21,008 bases of DNA. It comes from a virus. Below the pieces are notes generated by a model that was not told where the DNA came from, did no database searches, and saw only the letters and a program-made list of their open reading frames with translations. This document shows, in pieces, positions 2,148 to 19,436 of this stretch. The stretch is taken from IMG/VR virus record IMGVR_UViG_3300042400_000350, positions 1-21,008 of that record. One strand, 5' to 3'. Made by a program: the position numbers and the translations under genes. Positions within the stretch are counted from its first letter, which is position 1. Every line of letters starts with the position of its first letter.

Positions 2148-2541
2148 CGAACTGAACACAGAGGTTGCAGTTCTGCAATCAGTAGTTTATAAAATAGATT
2201 CAGCAGTAGCCGAAATAGCAAAATCATCTACCGAAGTCACCAGATTATTGGCAGTACACGATTCACGCATAGGTAGTTTAGAATCTGGTAGTAGGGATAC
2301 ATTAACAGATGTTCGGGACCTATACAAGAAAATGAATGAAAATACTAAAGAAATAGTAGAAAAACTAGAAGATATGGAGGAAAGAATAGAACTCAAATTA
2401 AAAGAGCATTCTGATAAATCCATTGCACAACATAAGTCTATATCAGACAGATTAACAGTTTTAGAGAATTGGAAATGGATGGTAATAGGTAGTGCGATAG
2501 CTTTAGGTTTTCTACTTAAACATTTAGAACTATTCAAATAA
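2140..2541 (+). CDS. XhlA-like coiled-coil protein with C-terminal membrane anchor
   Basis: 133 aa from ATG 2140, chosen over GTG 2137 because AAGGA lies 8 nt upstream. Residues 1-110 form a long amphipathic, charged helix with heptad spacing and a 'SDRLTVLENWKW' segment. A single hydrophobic helix follows (about 112-130, MVIGSAIALGFLLKHL), then a short tail. This is the layout of haemolysin XhlA-like and related phage proteins, often found with lysis genes. It overlaps the i-spanin stop by 8 nt, so a role in lysis or membrane association is plausible. No endolysin is visible in the window. Confidence 0.7.
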   Translation: MINELNTEVAVLQSVVYKIDSAVAEIAKSSTEVTRLLAVHDSRIGSLESGSRDTLTDVRDLYKKMNENTKEIVEKLEDMEERIELKLKEHSDKSIAQHKSISDRLTVLENWKWMVIGSAIALGFLLKHLELFK

Positions 2542-2621
2542 TAGTACCTATTTCATATGGTACATAGTCATTATACTAAAAAGTAAAGTAAAAGTAAAGG
2601 GAAAATAAAAAAATATTTTTA

Positions 2622-2650
2622 TTTACTAATCTGTAAAAATATATTATAAT
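2622..2650 (+). promoter_or_regulatory. Phage promoter 1 (TTTACT-N17-TATAAT), replication/nucleotide operon
   Basis: The -35 is TTTACT at 2622-2627 and the -10 is TATAAT at 2645-2650, with a 17-nt spacer. It lies 25 nt upstream of the primase ATG; AAAGGA in the leader supplies the ribosome site. The preceding 130 bp gap is very A/T rich and includes a weak GTACC/GGTAC hairpin (2544-2563) without a U-tract. Confidence 0.85.
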
Positions 2651-2675
2651 AGTGTTTTAAATTAAAGGATTTAAA

Positions 2676-3704
2676 ATGCTTTATATTGATATCACATACG
2701 CAAACCGTTTAGGTTCATATCTAAGAAACTTCAAACAAAAGTCCCAATATCTCTGGAACTATTCTTGTCCAGTTTGCGGAGACTCGTCTTCAAAAAAGAA
2801 TAAAGCAAGGGGTTATATCTATAGACAAAAGACAGGTTTATTTTGTAAATGTCATAAGTGCGGTTATTCAACTAATGTTGGTAATCTAATCAAGTATGTT
2901 GATTCTAACCTATATACGCAATATGTGACAGAAAGGTTTAAGAATAATGCCAAACCTAGAAATGATCATAGAAAACTTGAAGAAGTAATACCAGAGTTAA
3001 AAACTATTAAACTTGATTTACTAGAAGATGATGTTTTATCTAAACTAAAAAGAATCGATAAAATACCTGACACGCATTATGCAGCTAAATACCTAACCAA
3101 AAGATGTATACCGAAAGAACTTTGGCATTTGTTTTATTATACACCAAAGTTCTTTAAGTATGTTAATGATAATATCAAGCATCAATTTCCTAAGTTAGAA
3201 CAAGACCATCCTAGATTGATCATACCTTTCTTCAATGCGTTTGGTAAATGTTTTGCGCTTCAAGGTAGGGCTTTTGGTAAAGAAATACCAAAATATTATA
3301 CTATAAAGATTGATGATACAGAAGAAAAGATATTTGGTCTAGAACGAGTTGATTATGGTAAAAGAATTTTGATTACTGAAGGACCAATTGATTCATTGTT
3401 ATTACCTAATGCGTTAGCGGTATCAGGTTCTAGTTTTGATACACCTACTATCAAACAAATATTAACAAATGCTACTATTATTTCAGATAATGAACCTAGA
3501 CATCCTGAGATAGTTAAAATTATTGGTAAAAATATTGACAAGGGGTATTCAGTGTGTCTAATGCCAGAAACATTTAAACATAAAGATATAAATGATGCGA
3601 TAATAGCTGGTAAGAATATAGAAGAAATTGTTAATATAATTAATAATAACACATTTACGGGTATGGAAGCAAAACTAAGATTTGCTACTTGGAAAAAAGT
3701 ATGA
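2676..3704 (+). CDS. T4 gp61-like DNA primase
   Basis: Synthesises RNA primers for lagging-strand replication together with the phage helicase (not in this window). 342 aa, the size I recall for T4 gp61. An N-terminal zinc-ribbon has CPVCG at 31-35 and a second cluster C57/C59/H60/C62 (CKCHKCGY). The TOPRIM catalytic domain has 'ILITEGPIDS' with Glu235 and Asp239, then acidic 'SDNE' at 270-273 and 'KDINDA' at 303-308. First gene of a long operon; its TGA overlaps the next ATG. Clear assignment. Confidence 0.9.
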   Translation: MLYIDITYANRLGSYLRNFKQKSQYLWNYSCPVCGDSSSKKNKARGYIYRQKTGLFCKCHKCGYSTNVGNLIKYVDSNLYTQYVTERFKNNAKPRNDHRKLEEVIPELKTIKLDLLEDDVLSKLKRIDKIPDTHYAAKYLTKRCIPKELWHLFYYTPKFFKYVNDNIKHQFPKLEQDHPRLIIPFFNAFGKCFALQGRAFGKEIPKYYTIKIDDTEEKIFGLERVDYGKRILITEGPIDSLLLPNALAVSGSSFDTPTIKQILTNATIISDNEPRHPEIVKIIGKNIDKGYSVCLMPETFKHKDINDAIIAGKNIEEIVNIINNNTFTGMEAKLRFATWKKV

Positions 3705-3868
3705 TCATGACGATATTGATAATTGTTTTACTTTCAGTTATAATAATCTATTCAATACCAATAATTATTGCTACAACTGTTATGTGTATTCGCATAATAA
3801 TATTGGTAGGTAGTTGGATAGTTGCCTTAGGATTTATATACTACATATTTACATATTTTATAAAATGA
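3701..3868 (+). CDS. Small two-helix membrane protein (55 aa)
   Basis: A short ORF begins at an ATGA overlap with the primase stop, with GGAAAA ~6 nt upstream. The 55-aa product is almost entirely Ile/Leu/Val/Tyr-rich, with two predicted membrane helices and a short turn containing Cys-Ile-Arg. It exactly fills the gap between primase and thyX and ends where the thyX Shine-Dalgarno (GAGGA) begins. Coupling and gap-filling support a real gene; function unknown. Confidence 0.6.
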   Translation: MIMTILIIVLLSVIIIYSIPIIIATTVMCIRIIILVGSWIVALGFIYYIFTYFIK

Positions 3869-8235: not shown

Positions 8236-8655
8236 ATGTGGAAATACAAGGAAGTTGAAGTTGATACTCTACCTGATTGTATTGGATTTGTCTATAAGAT
8301 TACCAATACCATTTCGGGTAGAGCATACATTGGTAAGAAATTAAAACATTTTACTAAAACATCTTTAAAGACTGTAACATTAAAGTCTGGAATTAAAAAG
8401 AAGAAAAAGGTCAAAACATTAGTTGAATCAGACTGGAAAACATATTGGTCTAGTTCTATTGAACTTCAAAATGATGTAAAAGAGTTAGGCGAAGAAAACT
8501 TCATTCGTGAGGTACTCTTTTATTGTCAATCAAAAGGAACACTTTCTTATATAGAAGCAAGAGAACAGTTTTCCAATAGAGTTTTGGAACAACCAGAACT
8601 TTGGTACAATGGGATAATTCAAGTAAAAATTCACCGTTCTCACGTAAAATTATAA
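8236..8655 (+). CDS. GIY-YIG family nuclease (phage type)
   Basis: 139 aa. The GIY-YIG core is GFVY (17-20) ... YIGKK (31-35), followed by a Lys-rich insert, 'SDWKTYWSSS', 'NFIREVLFYC' and a glutamate-bearing helix 'YIEAREQFSNRVLEQPELWYNG'. This matches a family of stand-alone GIY-YIG proteins common in T4-like phages. It could be a homing endonuclease or a resident DNA-processing nuclease. It is last in the operon, ending 9 bp before the next promoter. Nuclease activity is likely; its target is unknown. Confidence 0.78.
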   Translation: MWKYKEVEVDTLPDCIGFVYKITNTISGRAYIGKKLKHFTKTSLKTVTLKSGIKKKKKVKTLVESDWKTYWSSSIELQNDVKELGEENFIREVLFYCQSKGTLSYIEAREQFSNRVLEQPELWYNGIIQVKIHRSHVKL

Positions 8656-8664
8656 AAATAAACC

Positions 8665-8693
8665 TTTACTTTTTAAATTAGATGTTTTATAAT
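8665..8693 (+). promoter_or_regulatory. Phage promoter 2 (TTTACT-N17-TATAAT)
   Basis: TTTACT 8665-8670 and TATAAT 8688-8693, spacer 17. The 31-nt leader to ATG 8725 carries GATAAAGTGAG as ribosome-site region, a leader type shared with the promoters at 13378 and 19124. Confidence 0.85.
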
Positions 8694-8724
8694 AAGTCTT
8701 TAATTGATAAAGTGAGTATATATT

Positions 8725-9018
8725 ATGAGTAACAAAGAATTAACTTCAAAACAAATTAACATCGTTATTGAAGCTCAACATCAAATGATTGACTTTCCTA
8801 AGAAAGCAGTCGTCAACTCCGAGTCGTTTTTCGTTAAAGAAATCATTAAACAACAAGATTATGATTTAGCAATGGATTACTGGTCTTGGGTATGCGCTTT
8901 GCCTAACTCAAAGTGGTCAGAACTGTTTAATGATCCAACTATTCAAGTTAATCAAAAGTTATTAAAAGCAATTGATTCTACTGTTAAGATGCCTTCTTGG
9001 GGTTATGCAAATACATAA
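8725..9018 (+). CDS. Unknown phage protein (97 aa)
   Basis: 97 aa with its own promoter, probably early or middle expressed. Soluble, helical, with several Trp (DYWSWVCALPNSKWSELF). No recognised motif. Its stop codon lies inside the 75-bp promoter/leader repeat of the next gene. Candidates include a host-takeover protein, but nothing in the sequence proves this. Confidence 0.7.
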   Translation: MSNKELTSKQINIVIEAQHQMIDFPKKAVVNSESFFVKEIIKQQDYDLAMDYWSWVCALPNSKWSELFNDPTIQVNQKLLKAIDSTVKMPSWGYANT

Positions 9019-9089
9019 AATAAACCTTTACTTTTTAATTTAGATGCTTTATAATAACTTATAATTTGAAATTGAGAGAATATATTATG
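9015..9089 (+). repeat. 75-bp exact direct repeat, copy 1 (promoter plus leader)
   Basis: This segment from ATAAAATAAACC through the ATG at 9087 is identical, base for base as I read it, to 12141-12215. It contains the whole promoter, transcription start region, leader and start codon. The bases immediately before it differ. Confidence 0.9.
9027..9055 (+). promoter_or_regulatory. Phage promoter 3 (TTTACT-N17-TATAAT)
   Basis: TTTACT 9027-9032, TATAAT 9050-9055, spacer 17; 31 nt to ATG 9087, with AATTGAGAGA in the leader. It drives 9087, 9513 and the ligase gene. Confidence 0.85.
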
Positions 9090-9503
9090 GCTTACATGAA
9101 CCAAGAAAAGAAAGCGATTATCAGTGCTAAGATGAAACCAATCTTAAAAAAGTACAAAGTAAAAGCAACTCTATCAGTAGTTAATCATTCTACTATCAAT
9201 CTAAACGTTAAATCAAGTGCGTTTGACCTTGTTGGAATCTACAACAAATATCTTAAAGAACAAACTGCTTTTAAATATCCAAACGAAACTTATACAAACC
9301 GCGAATATTTTAAATTAACCCATGGTTGGGTTGATGATTACTATGGTGGGGTTGAACTTGCTTTCTTTAAAGAAGCATTTGCTGCCTTACAAAGTGCAGG
9401 TTATTATAACAACTCTGATGCCCAAATTGATTATTTTGATACTGCTTATTACTTCTATATCAATGTTGGTCAATGGGACAAACCTTATCAACAAACTGTT
9501 TGA
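9087..9503 (+). CDS. Unknown phage protein (138 aa)
   Basis: ATG 9087 is used, not the in-frame TTG at 9066, because the latter lies in the conserved leader shared with another gene. 138 aa, mixed alpha/beta, rich in Tyr and Lys; sections 'MKPILKKYKVKATLSVVNHSTINLNV' (residues 14 onward, shown in pieces: MKPILKKYK, ATLSVVNHS, INLNV) and 'DYFDTAYYFYINVG' resemble a family of small phage/bacterial proteins of unknown function. No catalytic motif. First gene of the ligase transcription unit. Confidence 0.72.
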   Translation: MAYMNQEKKAIISAKMKPILKKYKVKATLSVVNHSTINLNVKSSAFDLVGIYNKYLKEQTAFKYPNETYTNREYFKLTHGWVDDYYGGVELAFFKEAFAALQSAGYYNNSDAQIDYFDTAYYFYINVGQWDKPYQQTV

Positions 9504-9512
9504 GGATATACT

Positions 9513-9707
9513 ATGTTTAAATATGGTGTTTTTAGTTATGGTGGAGCAATTGGTAATTGTGGTACTGGTGTTATTATGGTAAAGTCTTTTGATAAGAAAG
9601 AGGATGCTAAGAAATGCGCTAAAGGATATAATGCTGTTCTAACTCCTGGCGAAAAGAAATATTATGGTATGAAATATGCTGTTAGAATTTTTAGAGTGGT
9701 GGAATAA
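9513..9707 (+). CDS. Small unknown phage protein (64 aa)
   Basis: 64 aa with GAGGA upstream of ATG. The 'FDKKEDAKKCAKGYNAVLTPGEKKYYGMKYAVRIF' pattern (in pieces: DKKEDAKKCAKGYNA, LTPGEKKYYGMKY) suggests a compact alpha/beta domain. Its TAA overlaps the ligase ATG (TAATG), so it is coupled to ligase. No function recognised. Confidence 0.68.
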   Translation: MFKYGVFSYGGAIGNCGTGVIMVKSFDKKEDAKKCAKGYNAVLTPGEKKYYGMKYAVRIFRVVE

Positions 9708-11047
9708 TGATATTATCCATACTACAAGAACTTGAAGCAAATCCATCAAGAAATTTCAAAATAGAATTGTTAACCAAACACAAAGATAATGAACTTCTAA
9801 AAGAAGTTTGTCGGTTAGCCAATGACCCAATGACCCAGTTCTATCAAAGAAAGATTCCAAAGTATGAACCAAATACTTTTCTTCTGAGTGATAATAATCT
9901 AGATTGGGCTATTCAAGAATTGGTTGAACAATTAGCTAGTCGTAAAATTACTGGTAACAATGCTATTACACATTTAGAGTTTATTCTTGAAAATGTAACA
10001 GCAAATAATGCCAAGGTCATTGAACGTATCATCCAGAAAGACTTGAAGTGTGGTGTTAATACTTCAACAATTAATAAAGTCTGGCCAAATCTAATACCTG
10101 AGTTTCCTTGTATGTTATGTTCTCCTTTCGAGCAGAAATTAGTCGATAAGATTGTATTCCCAGCTATCGTCCAGGCAAAAATGGATGGTATGCGCTTTGC
10201 CGCTATTGTTAAATTTGATAGGGATTTAAAAGGTACAGTTGAATTCCGTTCTAGGAATGGTAAAGAGATTTCATTACTAGGCAGTCTGGAAGAAGAATTC
10301 ATTGAATTGGCTTATGGCAAAGACCTTGTGTTTGATGGTGAACTTCTGGTATATGATACAGTTGAAACAGATTCAAACGGCAAGATATGCGACCGCCAAA
10401 CTGGTAATGGTATTCTTAACAAAGCAGTAAAAGGAACTATATCAAAAGAAGAAGCAGATAGAGTATTTGCTACTCTTTGGGATCAAATTCCATATGAAGA
10501 TTTTATTGCTGGTAAATGTGACCAACCTTACAGTTATAGATTTAGGCAATTAAAAAATCTTATTTATAAATTAAGTAAATTTAAATTAAGGAAACTTGAT
10601 TTAGTAGAAACTTTTGAGGTAGATTCTTTAGAACAAACTCAAAGAATATTCCAAAACTATCTTGATGACGGTGATGAAGGTATCATTCTTAAAGATCCAA
10701 ACTCATTATGGGAAAACAAAAGATCCAAAGGACAAATCAAGTTTAAAGCAATTAATGATACTTCACTACAAGTCATTAGCGTTATAGGTGGAACTGGTAA
10801 ATATGTTGATATGATTGGTTCACTTTATTGTGAATCAGCCGATGGCATAATAAAAGTATATATTGGATCAGGGTTTTCAGATGAACAAAGAAATATGCCC
10901 CCATCAGAATATTATGGTAAAATTGTATCTATCAAATACAATGCTAAAATACAGGCAAAAACTGGAGAGTGGTCTTTATTTTTGCCTGTATTTGAATATG
11001 TAAGAACTGATCAGGATTTAGCGGACTCTTTTGATAGAATTCTTTAA
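9707..11047 (+). CDS. ATP-dependent DNA ligase, T4 gp30-like
   Basis: Seals nicks in duplex DNA during replication and repair. 446 aa. An N-terminal helical domain precedes motif I AKMDG (adenylated Lys158), motif III 'FDGELLVY' (209-216), motif IV 'DEGIILKDP' (323-331), motif V 'IKFKA' (344-348), then an OB-fold. The last 45 codons (402-446) have a diverged second copy at 12012-12149, and the final 30 nt overlap the antisense homing-endonuclease gene. The present C-terminus was therefore probably acquired with that gene. All catalytic motifs are intact, so activity is expected. Confidence 0.92.
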   Translation: MILSILQELEANPSRNFKIELLTKHKDNELLKEVCRLANDPMTQFYQRKIPKYEPNTFLLSDNNLDWAIQELVEQLASRKITGNNAITHLEFILENVTANNAKVIERIIQKDLKCGVNTSTINKVWPNLIPEFPCMLCSPFEQKLVDKIVFPAIVQAKMDGMRFAAIVKFDRDLKGTVEFRSRNGKEISLLGSLEEEFIELAYGKDLVFDGELLVYDTVETDSNGKICDRQTGNGILNKAVKGTISKEEADRVFATLWDQIPYEDFIAGKCDQPYSYRFRQLKNLIYKLSKFKLRKLDLVETFEVDSLEQTQRIFQNYLDDGDEGIILKDPNSLWENKRSKGQIKFKAINDTSLQVISVIGGTGKYVDMIGSLYCESADGIIKVYIGSGFSDEQRNMPPSEYYGKIVSIKYNAKIQAKTGEWSLFLPVFEYVRTDQDLADSFDRIL

Positions 11048-11866
11048 TTCTATCATTTCTAAACCAAAGTTTTTATTACCATATTTATCTGGAAGTCTGC
11101 CTTTTATAAATCCTATTGGAACAATATCTTCTATGGAAACATAAATTTCAATTTCGTAATTATGATATCTTAATTTTCCTTTAGGTCCGGATCCTATACT
11201 TGTTTTACCTTTTGTAGATTTACTTATATTTTCACAATGTTGTTTTGTTCTGAGTGGTTTGGATTTACCTTTATTACCAATAGAAAGTTTTTCTTTTTGT
11301 TCTTTAGTAGTCCTACCACTAGACCAAGCAGGGTTGTAAGTTAAAAATTCTAATCGTTCTTCTTGCGATAAAAAGTATATTTTAATTATATGTTTATAAT
11401 TTACCCAAAATCTACCTTTATTGCCAGTTGGATATTTTATGTTAGGTATATTTAATGTTAAACACATTTGATTTATGATATCATTGACTAAGGCATTTGC
11501 TCCAGCATTTCCAGGCAATTTAGATGGTTTGAATAAACTTTTACCATATGCTCCTGGATTAGAACGATTTAACATTTTATTATTTTTACATGCTTTAGTT
11601 TTTATTAGAAAAGTATTTTCCCATTCTCGGCAACTTTCTATGTTATCAAATATCTTTGTTATTTTAATAATATCAGGTTCGCCATGAGTTTTTCTAAATT
11701 CTTTTACATATTTGGAACTTGTAAAGTATGATTTCCATAATTTTGAAGGGTGGCATTTTTTACTATAACTTGATCCATAATAAGATATGCCAAATGCTTT
11801 CCATTTAATATAATATGTATATGGGGTTCTTCCTTCTAATGAAGTATAAATAGTTGTGCTGGTCAT
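11018..11866 (-). CDS. GIY-YIG-like homing endonuclease inserted at the ligase 3' end
   Basis: The only minus-strand gene in the window. 282 aa. The N-terminal domain has a GIY-YIG-like pattern: YYI (18-20) ... YYGS (29-32), then 'KCHPSKLWKSYFTSSKYV', a variant seen in many phage endonucleases, with Glu81/Glu83 in 'CREWENTF' as likely catalytic acid. The C-terminal part has a NUMOD3-like Gly/Lys-rich DNA-binding repeat (SIGNKGKSKPL, STKGKTSIGSGPKGK). A strong AGGAG precedes its ATG. Its last ~9 codons are antisense to the ligase C-terminus. A TATAAATA late-type box and a hairpin lie upstream. It probably cleaves ligase genes lacking the insert and spreads by repair. Confidence 0.82.
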   Translation of the reverse strand: MTSTTIYTSLEGRTPYTYYIKWKAFGISYYGSSYSKKCHPSKLWKSYFTSSKYVKEFRKTHGEPDIIKITKIFDNIESCREWENTFLIKTKACKNNKMLNRSNPGAYGKSLFKPSKLPGNAGANALVNDIINQMCLTLNIPNIKYPTGNKGRFWVNYKHIIKIYFLSQEERLEFLTYNPAWSSGRTTKEQKEKLSIGNKGKSKPLRTKQHCENISKSTKGKTSIGSGPKGKLRYHNYEIEIYVSIEDIVPIGFIKGRLPDKYGNKNFGLEMIELKNSIKRVR

Positions 11867-11899
11867 TATAGACTCCTGTTTATTGTAAGAATGATTAGA

Positions 11900-11937
11900 G
11901 CCAATAGATGTTGACGCATCGTGATTGGCATTTTTTT
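11900..11937 (+). terminator. Intrinsic terminator (plus strand) between the homing gene and the ligase relic
   Basis: GCCAAT (11900-11905) pairs with ATTGGC (11924-11929). An inner GATG/CATC stem is topped by TTGACG, and TTTTTTT follows at 11931-11937. It would stop ligase-operon transcripts that run antisense through the homing gene. The same hairpin lies in the minus-strand leader of the homing gene, where no U-tract follows. Confidence 0.75.
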
Positions 11938-11942
11938 ATTGC

Positions 11943-11971
11943 TTGACATATAACATTATTAGTTATATGAT
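11943..11971 (+). promoter_or_regulatory. Canonical sigma-70 promoter inside the insertion scar
   Basis: TTGACA 11943-11948 and TATGAT 11966-11971, with a 17-nt spacer. It differs from the phage's own TTTACT type and sits just after the terminator. It would transcribe the ligase relic and the downstream nuclease gene. Activity is inferred from the match only. Confidence 0.55.
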
Positions 11972-11972
11972 G

Positions 11973-11980
11973 TATTTATA
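11973..11980 (-). promoter_or_regulatory. Possible T4-type late promoter box for the homing gene
   Basis: On the minus strand this reads TATAAATA, the T4 late-promoter consensus, ~107 nt upstream of the homing-endonuclease ATG. Late expression with a structured leader is known for T4 homing genes. The motif is short and AT-only, so chance occurrence is a real possibility in this DNA. Confidence 0.35.
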
Positions 11981-12008
11981 TAAATTGAAAATTCACTATA
12001 GAATTTCT

Positions 12009-12149
12009 AATTATTATGGCAAAATCATATCTGTAAAGTATAATGCTAGAATTAAAAATACAAATGGTGAAGAGTCATTATTCCTTCCTGTTTTCCTTGA
12101 AGTAAGAAACGATAAAGAAGTTGCTGATACATCAAAAAAGATAAAATAA
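12009..12149 (+). pseudogene. Displaced remnant of the ligase C-terminus
   Basis: Codons from 12012 to the TAA at 12147-12149 align without gaps to the last 45 codons plus stop of the ligase (10910-11047), with 26 of 45 residues identical by my count, including YYGKI, KYNA and SLFLPVF. No ligase core precedes it and it has no good start of its own. This is the original 3' end of the ligase gene, cut off by insertion of the homing-endonuclease module, which brought a replacement tail. Confidence 0.85.
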
Positions 12150-12215
12150 ACCTTTACTTTTTAATTTAGATGCTTTATAATAACTTATAATTTGAAATTG
12201 AGAGAATATATTATG
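12141..12215 (+). repeat. 75-bp exact direct repeat, copy 2 (promoter plus leader)
   Basis: Identical to 9015-9089. It begins in the last codons of the ligase relic and ends with the ATG of the putative nuclease gene. Such a perfect match, when the other promoters have diverged, points to recent duplication or gene conversion, and could permit deletion of the ~3.1 kb between copies. Confidence 0.9.
12153..12181 (+). promoter_or_regulatory. Phage promoter 4 (TTTACT-N17-TATAAT)
   Basis: TTTACT 12153-12158, TATAAT 12176-12181, spacer 17, 31 nt to ATG 12213. It lies inside repeat copy 2. Confidence 0.85.
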
Positions 12216-12884
12216 AAAGAATGTTCTAATTGTAACACAATAAAATCGTTAAAAGAATTTTCTATAGACGTAAGGGTTAAAAGTGGTTATGCTTATTCCT
12301 GTAAAGAATGCGTGAGCGAAAAAAGAGCAATCACTTATGAAATAAGAGCGAATTTATACAACAAAAGAACTAAAGAACAAGCATTTCTACAAGATTTTAT
12401 ATTCATATATAACCCTAAATTTTTTTCTGAAGAATCACAAATCGAGGCTCTTATAGATCCTTTAGAATATAATATACCATATTTGTTTGAAAAAACTATG
12501 AATATGTTATCTGGATTTACTAAAACTGATAAGATAAATGATGTAAATGATGCTTTTAAAGATGGGATCTTTATGGAATGGAAAACTGGTGGTGTTAGTC
12601 CAATGGGTTCTGCTAGGATACCAGGAGTTCAAAGTAAAAAGAGTGGTAAGTTTAAAGAGGCTCCAATAGTTGCAGCACTTTATAATACAATTTCGGATAA
12701 AATAGATTTCTTCTTTATCCCAAAAGAAAAAATTATAGAATTGGTAACAATTTCGGATGGTTCTATTATGGGTACATATTCAATTAATTCTGGATACAAA
12801 CCTAAGTTGCGAGACTATTATGTAGAAACAATAGAAGAAATATTAGAATTAATCAAACAAAAAACTTTAATCCTGGAGAATTGA
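12213..12884 (+). CDS. Zinc-ribbon protein with a possible PD-(D/E)XK nuclease domain
   Basis: ATG 12213 is used; the in-frame TTG at 12192 lies in the shared leader. 223 aa. The N-terminus carries C4xxC7 ... C30xxC33, the ribbon often found ahead of phage HNH and related nucleases (ECSNCNTIKSLKEFS...CKEC). The C-terminal domain has Asp117, then 'FMEWKTGG' with Glu122-x-Lys124, then a strand 'KIDFFFIPKEKI', consistent with a restriction-endonuclease-like PD-(D/E)XK core. This fold call is inference from a short motif. Its position beside the ligase insertion scar and behind a duplicated promoter suggests a mobile or recently acquired gene. Confidence 0.6.
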   Translation: MKECSNCNTIKSLKEFSIDVRVKSGYAYSCKECVSEKRAITYEIRANLYNKRTKEQAFLQDFIFIYNPKFFSEESQIEALIDPLEYNIPYLFEKTMNMLSGFTKTDKINDVNDAFKDGIFMEWKTGGVSPMGSARIPGVQSKKSGKFKEAPIVAALYNTISDKIDFFFIPKEKIIELVTISDGSIMGTYSINSGYKPKLRDYYVETIEEILELIKQKTLILEN

Positions 12885-12885
12885 T

Positions 12886-13374
12886 ATGCCAAATTGGTGC
12901 GATAACTATGCTACATTTAAGAACGAAGACATAACTAAGATTGATGCTCTTGAGGCAGTTCTTTTACCAGATGAAGGTTCTGAAGAACTATTTAATACAA
13001 TTAGACCTATACCATTAGAGGAAGAAGACAATTGGTATAATTGGAACCTCGAAAACTGGGGTACTAAATGGGAGGCTAGAATACACGATTATTACCGAGA
13101 TGAAAATGAAATTAACGTTTCATTTGAAACTGCTTGGTGTCCTCCTATTGCATTATATGAATGGATGATTAAAAATGATTGGGAAGTCAATGCATATTAT
13201 CATGAACCTGGACAAGGTTTTGCTGGTAACTTTTGTAAAGAAGACGATTATTATGAATATGATTTAACCGATAGAGGAACTTGGGAAGATATTGATGATG
13301 ATATAAAAGAGTTTGCGAACTTTGAATCTGATTATGAGTGGCTTATGGAACAAACTGAAGAGGATGAAAAATAA
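12886..13374 (+). CDS. Api92-like ferredoxin-fold phage protein (162 aa)
   Basis: 162 aa, very acidic and Trp/Tyr-rich. It opens MPNWCDNYATF and has 'WNLENWGTKWEA', 'VSFETAWCPPIALYEWM' and 'YYHEPGQGFAGNF'. This series matches the DUF1281/Api92-like family found in phages and plasmids (YubB-like), which has a ferredoxin-like fold and unknown function. It begins 1 nt after the previous stop, with TGGAG upstream, so it shares promoter 4. Family recognition is from memory but the motif order is distinctive. Confidence 0.78.
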   Translation: MPNWCDNYATFKNEDITKIDALEAVLLPDEGSEELFNTIRPIPLEEEDNWYNWNLENWGTKWEARIHDYYRDENEINVSFETAWCPPIALYEWMIKNDWEVNAYYHEPGQGFAGNFCKEDDYYEYDLTDRGTWEDIDDDIKEFANFESDYEWLMEQTEEDEK

Positions 13375-13377
13375 ACC

Positions 13378-13406
13378 TTTACTTTTTAAATTAAATACTT
13401 TATAAT
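13378..13406 (+). promoter_or_regulatory. Phage promoter 5 (TTTACT-N17-TATAAT)
   Basis: TTTACT 13378-13383, TATAAT 13401-13406, spacer 17; 33 nt to ATG 13440, leader with GATAAATGAGAA. Confidence 0.85.
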
Positions 13407-13439
13407 GAGTCTTACTTTTTGATAAATGAGAACTATATA

Positions 13440-13763
13440 ATGAAAAACGAAATTGAAAACTACTTGAATTTTATCTCTACTAATTTTAACAACTGGTATA
13501 GCAATACCGATATGAGTAAAGAATTGGCAGAAGAACGAATGAAAGACTTCAAAGAAACTTTGAGTTTTGAAGAAGGTAGTGCTTATATTAAAGTTATGAC
13601 CAAAACTTCTGTCCATACTTTTATCGTTAAAAAAGATGGACCTAAATTTAAAAAGGGTGATATTTTAAAGGCAGCAAGTTGGAAAGCTCCTGCTAAGAAT
13701 TTTGCTCGTGGTAATATTTTCCAAGCTGATTCTTACAAAAACATTCAATGGTGTGGGGCATGA
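13440..13763 (+). CDS. Conserved unknown phage protein (107 aa)
   Basis: ATG 13440 is used because the upstream in-frame TTG lies in the leader near the transcription start. 107 aa: a helical N-terminal half and a basic C-terminal half with 'FKKGDILKAASWKAPAKNFARGNIFQ' (in pieces: KKGDILKAASWKAPAK, NFARGNIFQ) and a final 'IQWCGA'. This C-terminal pattern recurs, as I recall, in small proteins of many phages and some bacteria; function unknown. It overlaps the next ORF by ATGA. Confidence 0.72.
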   Translation: MKNEIENYLNFISTNFNNWYSNTDMSKELAEERMKDFKETLSFEEGSAYIKVMTKTSVHTFIVKKDGPKFKKGDILKAASWKAPAKNFARGNIFQADSYKNIQWCGA

Positions 13764-19000: not shown

Positions 19001-19120
19001 ATGGCAGGAAAAGGTAGTAAACCAAGACCATTCTCAGATAGAAAAAAGTTTGATGAAAACTGGGATATGATATTTGGCAAGAAGAAAGAACCAGAAAAAG
19101 AACCAAATGATAAAAAATAA
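19001..19120 (+). CDS. Tiny conserved phage protein, GKGSKPRP type (39 aa)
   Basis: 39 aa starting MAGKGSKPRPFSDRKKFDEN, then WDMIFGKK. The 'GKGSKPRP....R..Y..NWD.IFGKK' pattern is, from memory, a widely distributed mini-protein of tailed phages, which strongly supports a real gene despite its length. GAGAAA precedes the ATG. The stop lies 3 bp before the next promoter. Function unknown. Confidence 0.72.
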   Translation: MAGKGSKPRPFSDRKKFDENWDMIFGKKKEPEKEPNDKK

Positions 19121-19123
19121 TAC

Positions 19124-19152
19124 TTTACTTTTATTATTACATATATTATAAT
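19124..19152 (+). promoter_or_regulatory. Phage promoter 8 (TTTACT-N17-TATAAT)
   Basis: TTTACT 19124-19129, TATAAT 19147-19152, spacer 17; 32-nt leader with TTTGATAAAGTGAG before ATG 19185, nearly the same as the leader of promoter 2. Confidence 0.85.
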
Positions 19153-19184
19153 AAGTCTTAATTTTGATAAAGTGAGTTTATATT

Positions 19185-19436
19185 ATGAAAACAATAACAA
19201 TTGAATTAGAAGATTATAAATGGTTGGCTATTTTAGCTCCAGATTCTAAATTGAATAAAAAAGATTTATGTCAATTGTTAAAAATCACTGAAGGAGGATT
19301 AAGAGATAGAATAAAATCTGGTACTTTCCCTAAAAATACACATACCAGAGATATTGGTAAACATAAAAATACTCTTCAATGGACTGCTCAAGTAGTTCGT
19401 GAAGCAATCAAACCATTTATTAATCAACCAAAATAG
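19185..19436 (+). CDS. Small helix-turn-helix protein (83 aa)
   Basis: 83 aa. Residues ~22-60 (LNKKDLCQLLKITEGGLRDR then IKSGTFPKN) look like an AlpA/MerR-type winged HTH: 'kkdLcqlLkiteggLrdRIksGtFPkn', with the loop 'RDIGKHKNTLQWTAQVV' completing a wing. Such proteins are DNA-binding regulators or excision factors. With its own strong promoter it is a candidate early transcription regulator. DNA binding is inferred from the motif. Confidence 0.7.
   Translation: MKTITIELEDYKWLAILAPDSKLNKKDLCQLLKITEGGLRDRIKSGTFPKNTHTRDIGKHKNTLQWTAQVVREAIKPFINQPK

Follow-up and report, generated by a model that had tools for sequence, protein, structure and literature searches.

A hybrid DNA ligase gene in an uncultured virus, probably formed by homing of an antisense endonuclease module

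The ligase locus and its insert

The DNA analysed here (the window) is a fragment of 21,008 bases from an uncultured virus, IMG/VR record IMGVR_UViG_3300042400_000350. By our own reading, the host of the insert is an uncultured T4-like phage, the ligase gene and an RNase H-like gene being ordered as in T4-like phages; the ligase is at most about 41% identical to those of named phages. The features are listed in window coordinates with their evidence in brackets (HEG, homing endonuclease gene; the clade and the diagnostic columns are explained in the next section).

9707-11047, plus strand: ATP-dependent DNA ligase, hybrid gene (PF01068, PF14743, phrog_114)
10750-10909, plus strand: presumed co-conversion tract of clade type, ligase codons ~349-401 (identity step relative to L025, alignment)
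10910-11047, plus strand: ligase 3' end of apparently foreign origin, codons 402-446 and stop (clade state in 2/13, outgroup state in 10/13 diagnostic columns)
11018-11866, minus strand: GIY-YIG-like HEG, 282 aa (ORF, relatives, weak domain matches)
11840-12011, no strand assigned: control cassette, spanning the first nine codons of the HEG through to the right module end (85% to L017:2355-2525; in 36 contigs)
11845-11852, plus strand: TATAAATA, T4-late-promoter-like motif inside the HEG start (conserved in most members)
11873-11877, minus strand: AGGAG, likely HEG ribosome binding site (sequence; the start codon is 6 nt away)
11900-11937, plus strand: hairpin followed by a T-run, terminator-like (inner stem covaries, 0/500 shuffles as good)
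11943-11971, plus strand: promoter-like (sigma70-like) TTGACA-17-TATGAT (11/12 consensus matches; conserved in the family)
11973-11980, minus strand: TATAAATA, late-promoter-like, upstream of the HEG (motif comparison across the family)
12012-12149, plus strand: relic, codons 402-446 and stop of the native ligase, apparently displaced (ligase match, columns, tree)

The ligase is complete in one ORF of 446 aa (profile matches: PF01068, E=2.5e-20; phrog_114, E=1.4e-125), and the predicted fold of the hybrid protein has a mean pLDDT of 83. Its residues 402-446 and the translation of 12012-12146 are identical at 26 of 45 positions without gaps; both this match and the coordinates given in the earlier note proved exact to the base. 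When the relic was shuffled 20,000 times, its identities to the ligase tail averaged 3.0 and reached 13 at most. The actual pair gives a tblastn E=4e-15, and the relic alone is matched by the ligase family phrog_114 (E=5.7e-9). Purifying selection acts on the foreign tail (pN/pS 0.05). An assembly artefact is excluded, since L003 and L004, which are separate contigs, have the same junctions, and L025 has the left junction and module part.

Between the ligase tail and the stranded segment, the minus-strand gene of homing type noticed earlier is indeed present. It overlaps the ligase stop by 30 nt and ends inside the foreign tail. The description of this gene as GIY-YIG-like gains some support from its relatives, which match the homing endonuclease family phrog_314, and from an annotated homing endonuclease to which it is 43% identical across 100 aa; its own domain matches are weak (SegE_GIY-YIG, E=0.014, which is below the curated cut-off; GIY-YIG, 0.73). 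A low-confidence model has the order strand-strand-helix-helix-strand-helix at 14-89; a fold search with this model was discarded, considering that a pLDDT of 39 is too poor and the PDB matches were meaningless. The HEG has been kept open under some constraint (pN/pS 0.33), weaker than that on the foreign tail. Directly behind the YYG motif, the HEGs of the window and L025 have Ser in place of the Arg of related HEGs; this replacement may alter the activity of the enzyme.

A group I intron was rejected, in agreement with the earlier note: an Rfam search of 9500-12600 returned no match and the ligase ORF is uninterrupted. A split gene of the Aeh1 nrdA type, in which both parts are needed, was rejected as well, as the ligase is whole in one ORF and the relic is deleted in L025.

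The window contains other elements near this locus. An intergenic repeat of about 75 bp, which bears a promoter, is found at 8655-8767, 9009-9089, 12135-12215, 13368-13445 and 19105-19188 (copies 77-97.5% identical); the copy that follows the relic is almost the same as that at 9009-9089. A second GIY-YIG gene, of SegE type (Pfam E=7.6e-30), occupies 8236-8655; its PHROG 447 label, "NAD synthetase", is probably a mislabel. The ORF at 12192-12884, beside the relic, has an endonuclease VII/HNH-like N-terminus (phrog_1035, E=3.7e-10) and is possibly another mobile nuclease.

The native end of the ligase

A scan of IMG/VR yielded 27 ligase loci. The insert is present at the ligase site in the window, L003, L004 and L025; it is absent at this site from the 13 insert-free clade ligases (distinct sequences among L005-L021, near-duplicates counted once). 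Each of the 13 carries a single copy of the C-terminal tail, so that no uninserted relative in this set has both copies. The relic is 67-91% identical to these tails, and the present tail 49-63%.

Diagnostic columns are those in which the clade state is fixed and mostly missing from outgroups. Window residues 349-400 have the clade state in 14 of 16 such columns; residues 401-446 have it in 2 of 13 and an outgroup state in 10 of 13, whereas in the relic 11 of these 13 columns show the clade state. The switch in clade state before and after codon 401 (Fisher p=1.5e-4) is located at codons ~401-406, which agrees with the entry of the module near codon 401 suggested in the earlier note. The relic starts at the same position; therefore, no native sequence was lost between the start of the tail and the start of the relic.

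In a tree of the last 46 residues, the clade and the relic form one branch (99/98), in which the relic is the sister of the insert-free L008 (88/97), and the present tail lies outside the clade; the proposal that the native end had been displaced is thus supported. However, the tree is short, and two forced alternatives are not strongly rejected on its 46 columns (AU p=0.21 and 0.07), so we consider the diagnostic columns to be the better evidence. The DNA 3' of the relic also matches L008 (12010-12183, 83%). Taken as sequence comparisons, these data support the view that the present ligase end is foreign and the relic is the native end. The expectation that the present tail would group with donors held in part: the outgroup states in the columns agree with it, but searches of IMG/VR and GenBank phages for the tail donor returned more distant ligases only.

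We also considered a foreign origin of the whole OB domain (349-446), suggested by the near-identity of the window and L025 from 10750. A 98-aa tree placed this domain next to L008, and the idea was dropped, as the diagnostic columns limit the foreign part to 402-446.

Among the carriers, L003 is 99% identical to the window. In L004 the tail, nuclease and relic are 100% identical to those of the window despite a mosaic ligase 5' part (about 53-93%), which indicates a recent transfer. L025 has 98% identity in the tail and 95% in the nuclease, and its ligase identity to the window jumps at 10753 from 0.81-0.87 to 0.96-0.99. The comparison supports a later movement of the ~50 codons upstream of the junction (from ~349) with the insert among the window, L004 and L025, as in co-conversion. 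An internal deletion in the L025 relic leaves CTAATTA and the last codons, TTGATAAAATTAAATAG; the relic thus appears to be dispensable.

Two local peculiarities of the ligase should be mentioned. Residues 349-356 (10751-10774) read INDTSLQV instead of the clade ELDCDLKV in all three insert carriers, and the following residues are clade-like. Codons 47-105 (window 9845-10021) exist as several strongly different alleles among otherwise similar ligases; this block lies directly beside the L017 insertion site described below and may go back to co-conversion during earlier homing.

The control cassette and related insertions

The window and L017, which has a different nuclease, have 172 bp in common at 85% identity, including nine nuclease codons, the hairpin, the T-run, the promoter TTGACA-17-TATAAT and TATAAATA on both strands. 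The homing gene thus has putative signals of its own, as had been noted. Pattern scans found the ~170-bp cassette in 36 viral contigs, joined to many different antisense nuclease genes. The HEGs of this family are antisense to the upstream gene, and in most of them the stop codon overlaps the 3' end of that gene by 1-32 nt. In the inner stem of the hairpin 14 cells are changed on both sides and 99.2% of cells are paired; a simple terminator scan misses this hairpin owing to its internal loop. The search for the cassette gave only weak partial matches in GenBank phages, and it was absent from the bacterial and archaeal genomes searched. The cassette-headed ORFs in L109:5776-6618 and L115:508-1302 (cassette orientation) contain at their start an HNH-like HHICPKAKD motif rather than GIY-YIG, and the nuclease type behind the same cassette thus seems to be interchangeable.

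L017 presents a mirror image of the window. The stranded segment, at 1478-1615, comprises the native ligase codons 1-46; after it come the nuclease, the cassette and, at 2524-3846, a ligase whose foreign start lies right of the promoter. A screen for duplicated gene ends across modules of the cassette family added L114. The gene affected there is a clamp-loader gene of gp62 type (phrog_225, E = 5.5e-42), which has a foreign start on the right of the module and has its native start stranded on the left. Compared with the nearest insert-free kin, the L114 relic reaches 97% identity and the foreign start only 76-81%. The foreign N-terminus is 92% identical to the outgroup L137, and the remaining gene only 55%; at the sequence level, this makes the donor lineage visible for L114. 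In both L017 and L114 the last nuclease codons are antisense relic sequence, as expected from an illegitimate join on that side. L113 and L118 have a shorter duplication of a C-terminal end (12 codons, E = 0.018), with the tail of a relative closer to the relic, and probably represent a further C-terminal exchange. Hybrid genes, displaced native ends and a shared cassette are thus observed together, and they recur in other phages.

A different arrangement is found in L013:4299-6598, where a sense-strand HEG stands directly after the ligase and its C-terminus is the fused old ligase end, NDKEIADSSIKIK; the last six codons of the L013 ligase are unlike those of its kin.

We lean toward regarding these elements as a mobile cassette family, in which a fixed bidirectional control element (the covarying terminator hairpin, the promoter, the late-promoter motifs and the initial codons of the HEG) is paired with interchangeable nucleases and would repeatedly carry the start or end of an essential replication gene, so that the invasion is repaired in the same step.

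Proposed mechanism, alternatives and known systems

We believe, with a probability of roughly 0.78, that a free-standing antisense HEG module, equipped with a terminator-promoter cassette, entered the ligase gene at codon ~401 together with a foreign ligase end. As to the cleavage sites, the repair path, the order of steps, immunity and the function of the cassette, we infer the following. The nuclease would cut the native ligase near codon 401, and the left DNA end would pair with a donor ligase carrying the module directly downstream. Repair would copy the end of the donor gene along with the nuclease gene and the cassette, and the right side of the copy would be joined to the break without homology or by microhomology. 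Provided that the donor DNA right of the module was unrelated, this right join would be non-homologous and would therefore leave the native codons 402-446 as the relic. A candidate microhomology at the right junction, ATTATTATGGC, comes from the comparison with the family member L064, which is not the true donor. Homology on the left only would give the C-terminal exchange of the window, and homology on the right only the N-terminal exchanges of L017 and L114. The foreign end would keep the essential ligase functional and, we propose, confer immunity by splitting the cleavage site; the cassette would stop the upstream transcript and restart transcription for the genes beyond. Intronless homing with one-sided homology is most likely the best explanation, and it accounts for the clean borders of the relic, the side of the illegitimate join and the recurrence in conserved replication genes. 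The overall history outlined in the earlier note (a module came in with a substitute C-terminus, and the native end was put out) is supported, and was even understated, considering the family and the mirror cases.

The most serious competitor, though an improbable one, is a tail duplication that came first: coinfecting phages would recombine to give the foreign and native ligase ends in tandem, and the HEG would land between them later. T4-like phages recombine freely, the window ligase is mosaic elsewhere, and this course would likewise place a nuclease between a foreign end and a relic. However, an insert-free tandem is absent from every clade ligase locus, no more than a few bases separate the start of the relic from the module end, the HEG ends within the foreign tail, and the same arrangement with the cassette recurs at the ligase start (L017) and in gp62 (L114).

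It is very improbable that the present tail is native but evolved fast (e.g., in escape from the nuclease) and that the relic was acquired from an L008-like relative. The absence of the donor from the searched collections and the 46-residue tree, which does not strongly reject a clade with both copies (AU p=0.21), would be consistent with this scenario; but the outgroup states in 10/13 columns would need many convergent reversals next to 52 preceding residues that are clade-like, the present tail is strongly conserved, native downstream DNA follows the relic, and in L114 the foreign end is 92% identical to a real outgroup. An equally slight chance is left to the HEG as an inert passenger of ordinary homologous recombination, as its weak domain match and altered Arg position might suggest, considering that it is open under some constraint, that the cassette accompanies many different nucleases at many sites, that gene ends are swapped on both module sides, and that ordinary recombination leaves no displaced relic.

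If the homing model proposed above is correct, a selfish nuclease can enter an essential coding sequence without an intron or intein by supplying a working replacement end, which possibly explains the mosaic ends of phage replication genes. Relics would then be records of individual homing events, and the shared cassette a handle for finding and counting such elements. The one-sided model is directly testable.

The free-standing Seg and Mob homing endonucleases of T4-like phages are known from intronless homing, with intergenic, intron and gene-splitting insertions, the latter exemplified by nrdA/mobE, gene 60/mobA and gene 43/seg (PMC2988022). The module in the window is like them in nuclease type, genomic setting, co-conversion of flanks and regulatory signals of its own; an exchanged gene end that leaves a stranded relic is unlike anything in that review (PMC2988022). 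Phage homing genes also mark the borders of exchanged segments and recombine among themselves; the part of that source drawn on here concerns nuclease domains and adjacent segments that are exchanged, and not hybrid host genes whose end has been displaced (PMC10448857). Our literature searches, with most subscription journals outside their scope, found no phage precedent for a gene-end swap with a relic.

Otherwise, we found such end-swapping entry into essential genes described only in fungal mitochondria, namely in the mobile-ORF ("mORF") hybrids of atp6 in Allomyces and of atp6, atp9, cox2 and nad3 in Glomus (PMC3630166). There, too, an endonuclease lies near the 3' end, a foreign C-terminus is joined in phase and the native C-terminus is found beyond the endonuclease, with the native copy clustering with kin and the foreign copy elsewhere (PMC3630166). 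The fungal endonuclease is part of the host-gene transcript and often in phase (PMC3630166), whereas the phage HEG is antisense and has its own cassette; the phage family also includes N-terminal exchanges, beyond the C-terminal hybrids of the fungal type. Since its HEG is on the minus strand, we regard the phage insert as resembling a fungal mORF hybrid in its working and do not class it as a member. The likeness links phages to the hybrid genes of fungal mitochondria.
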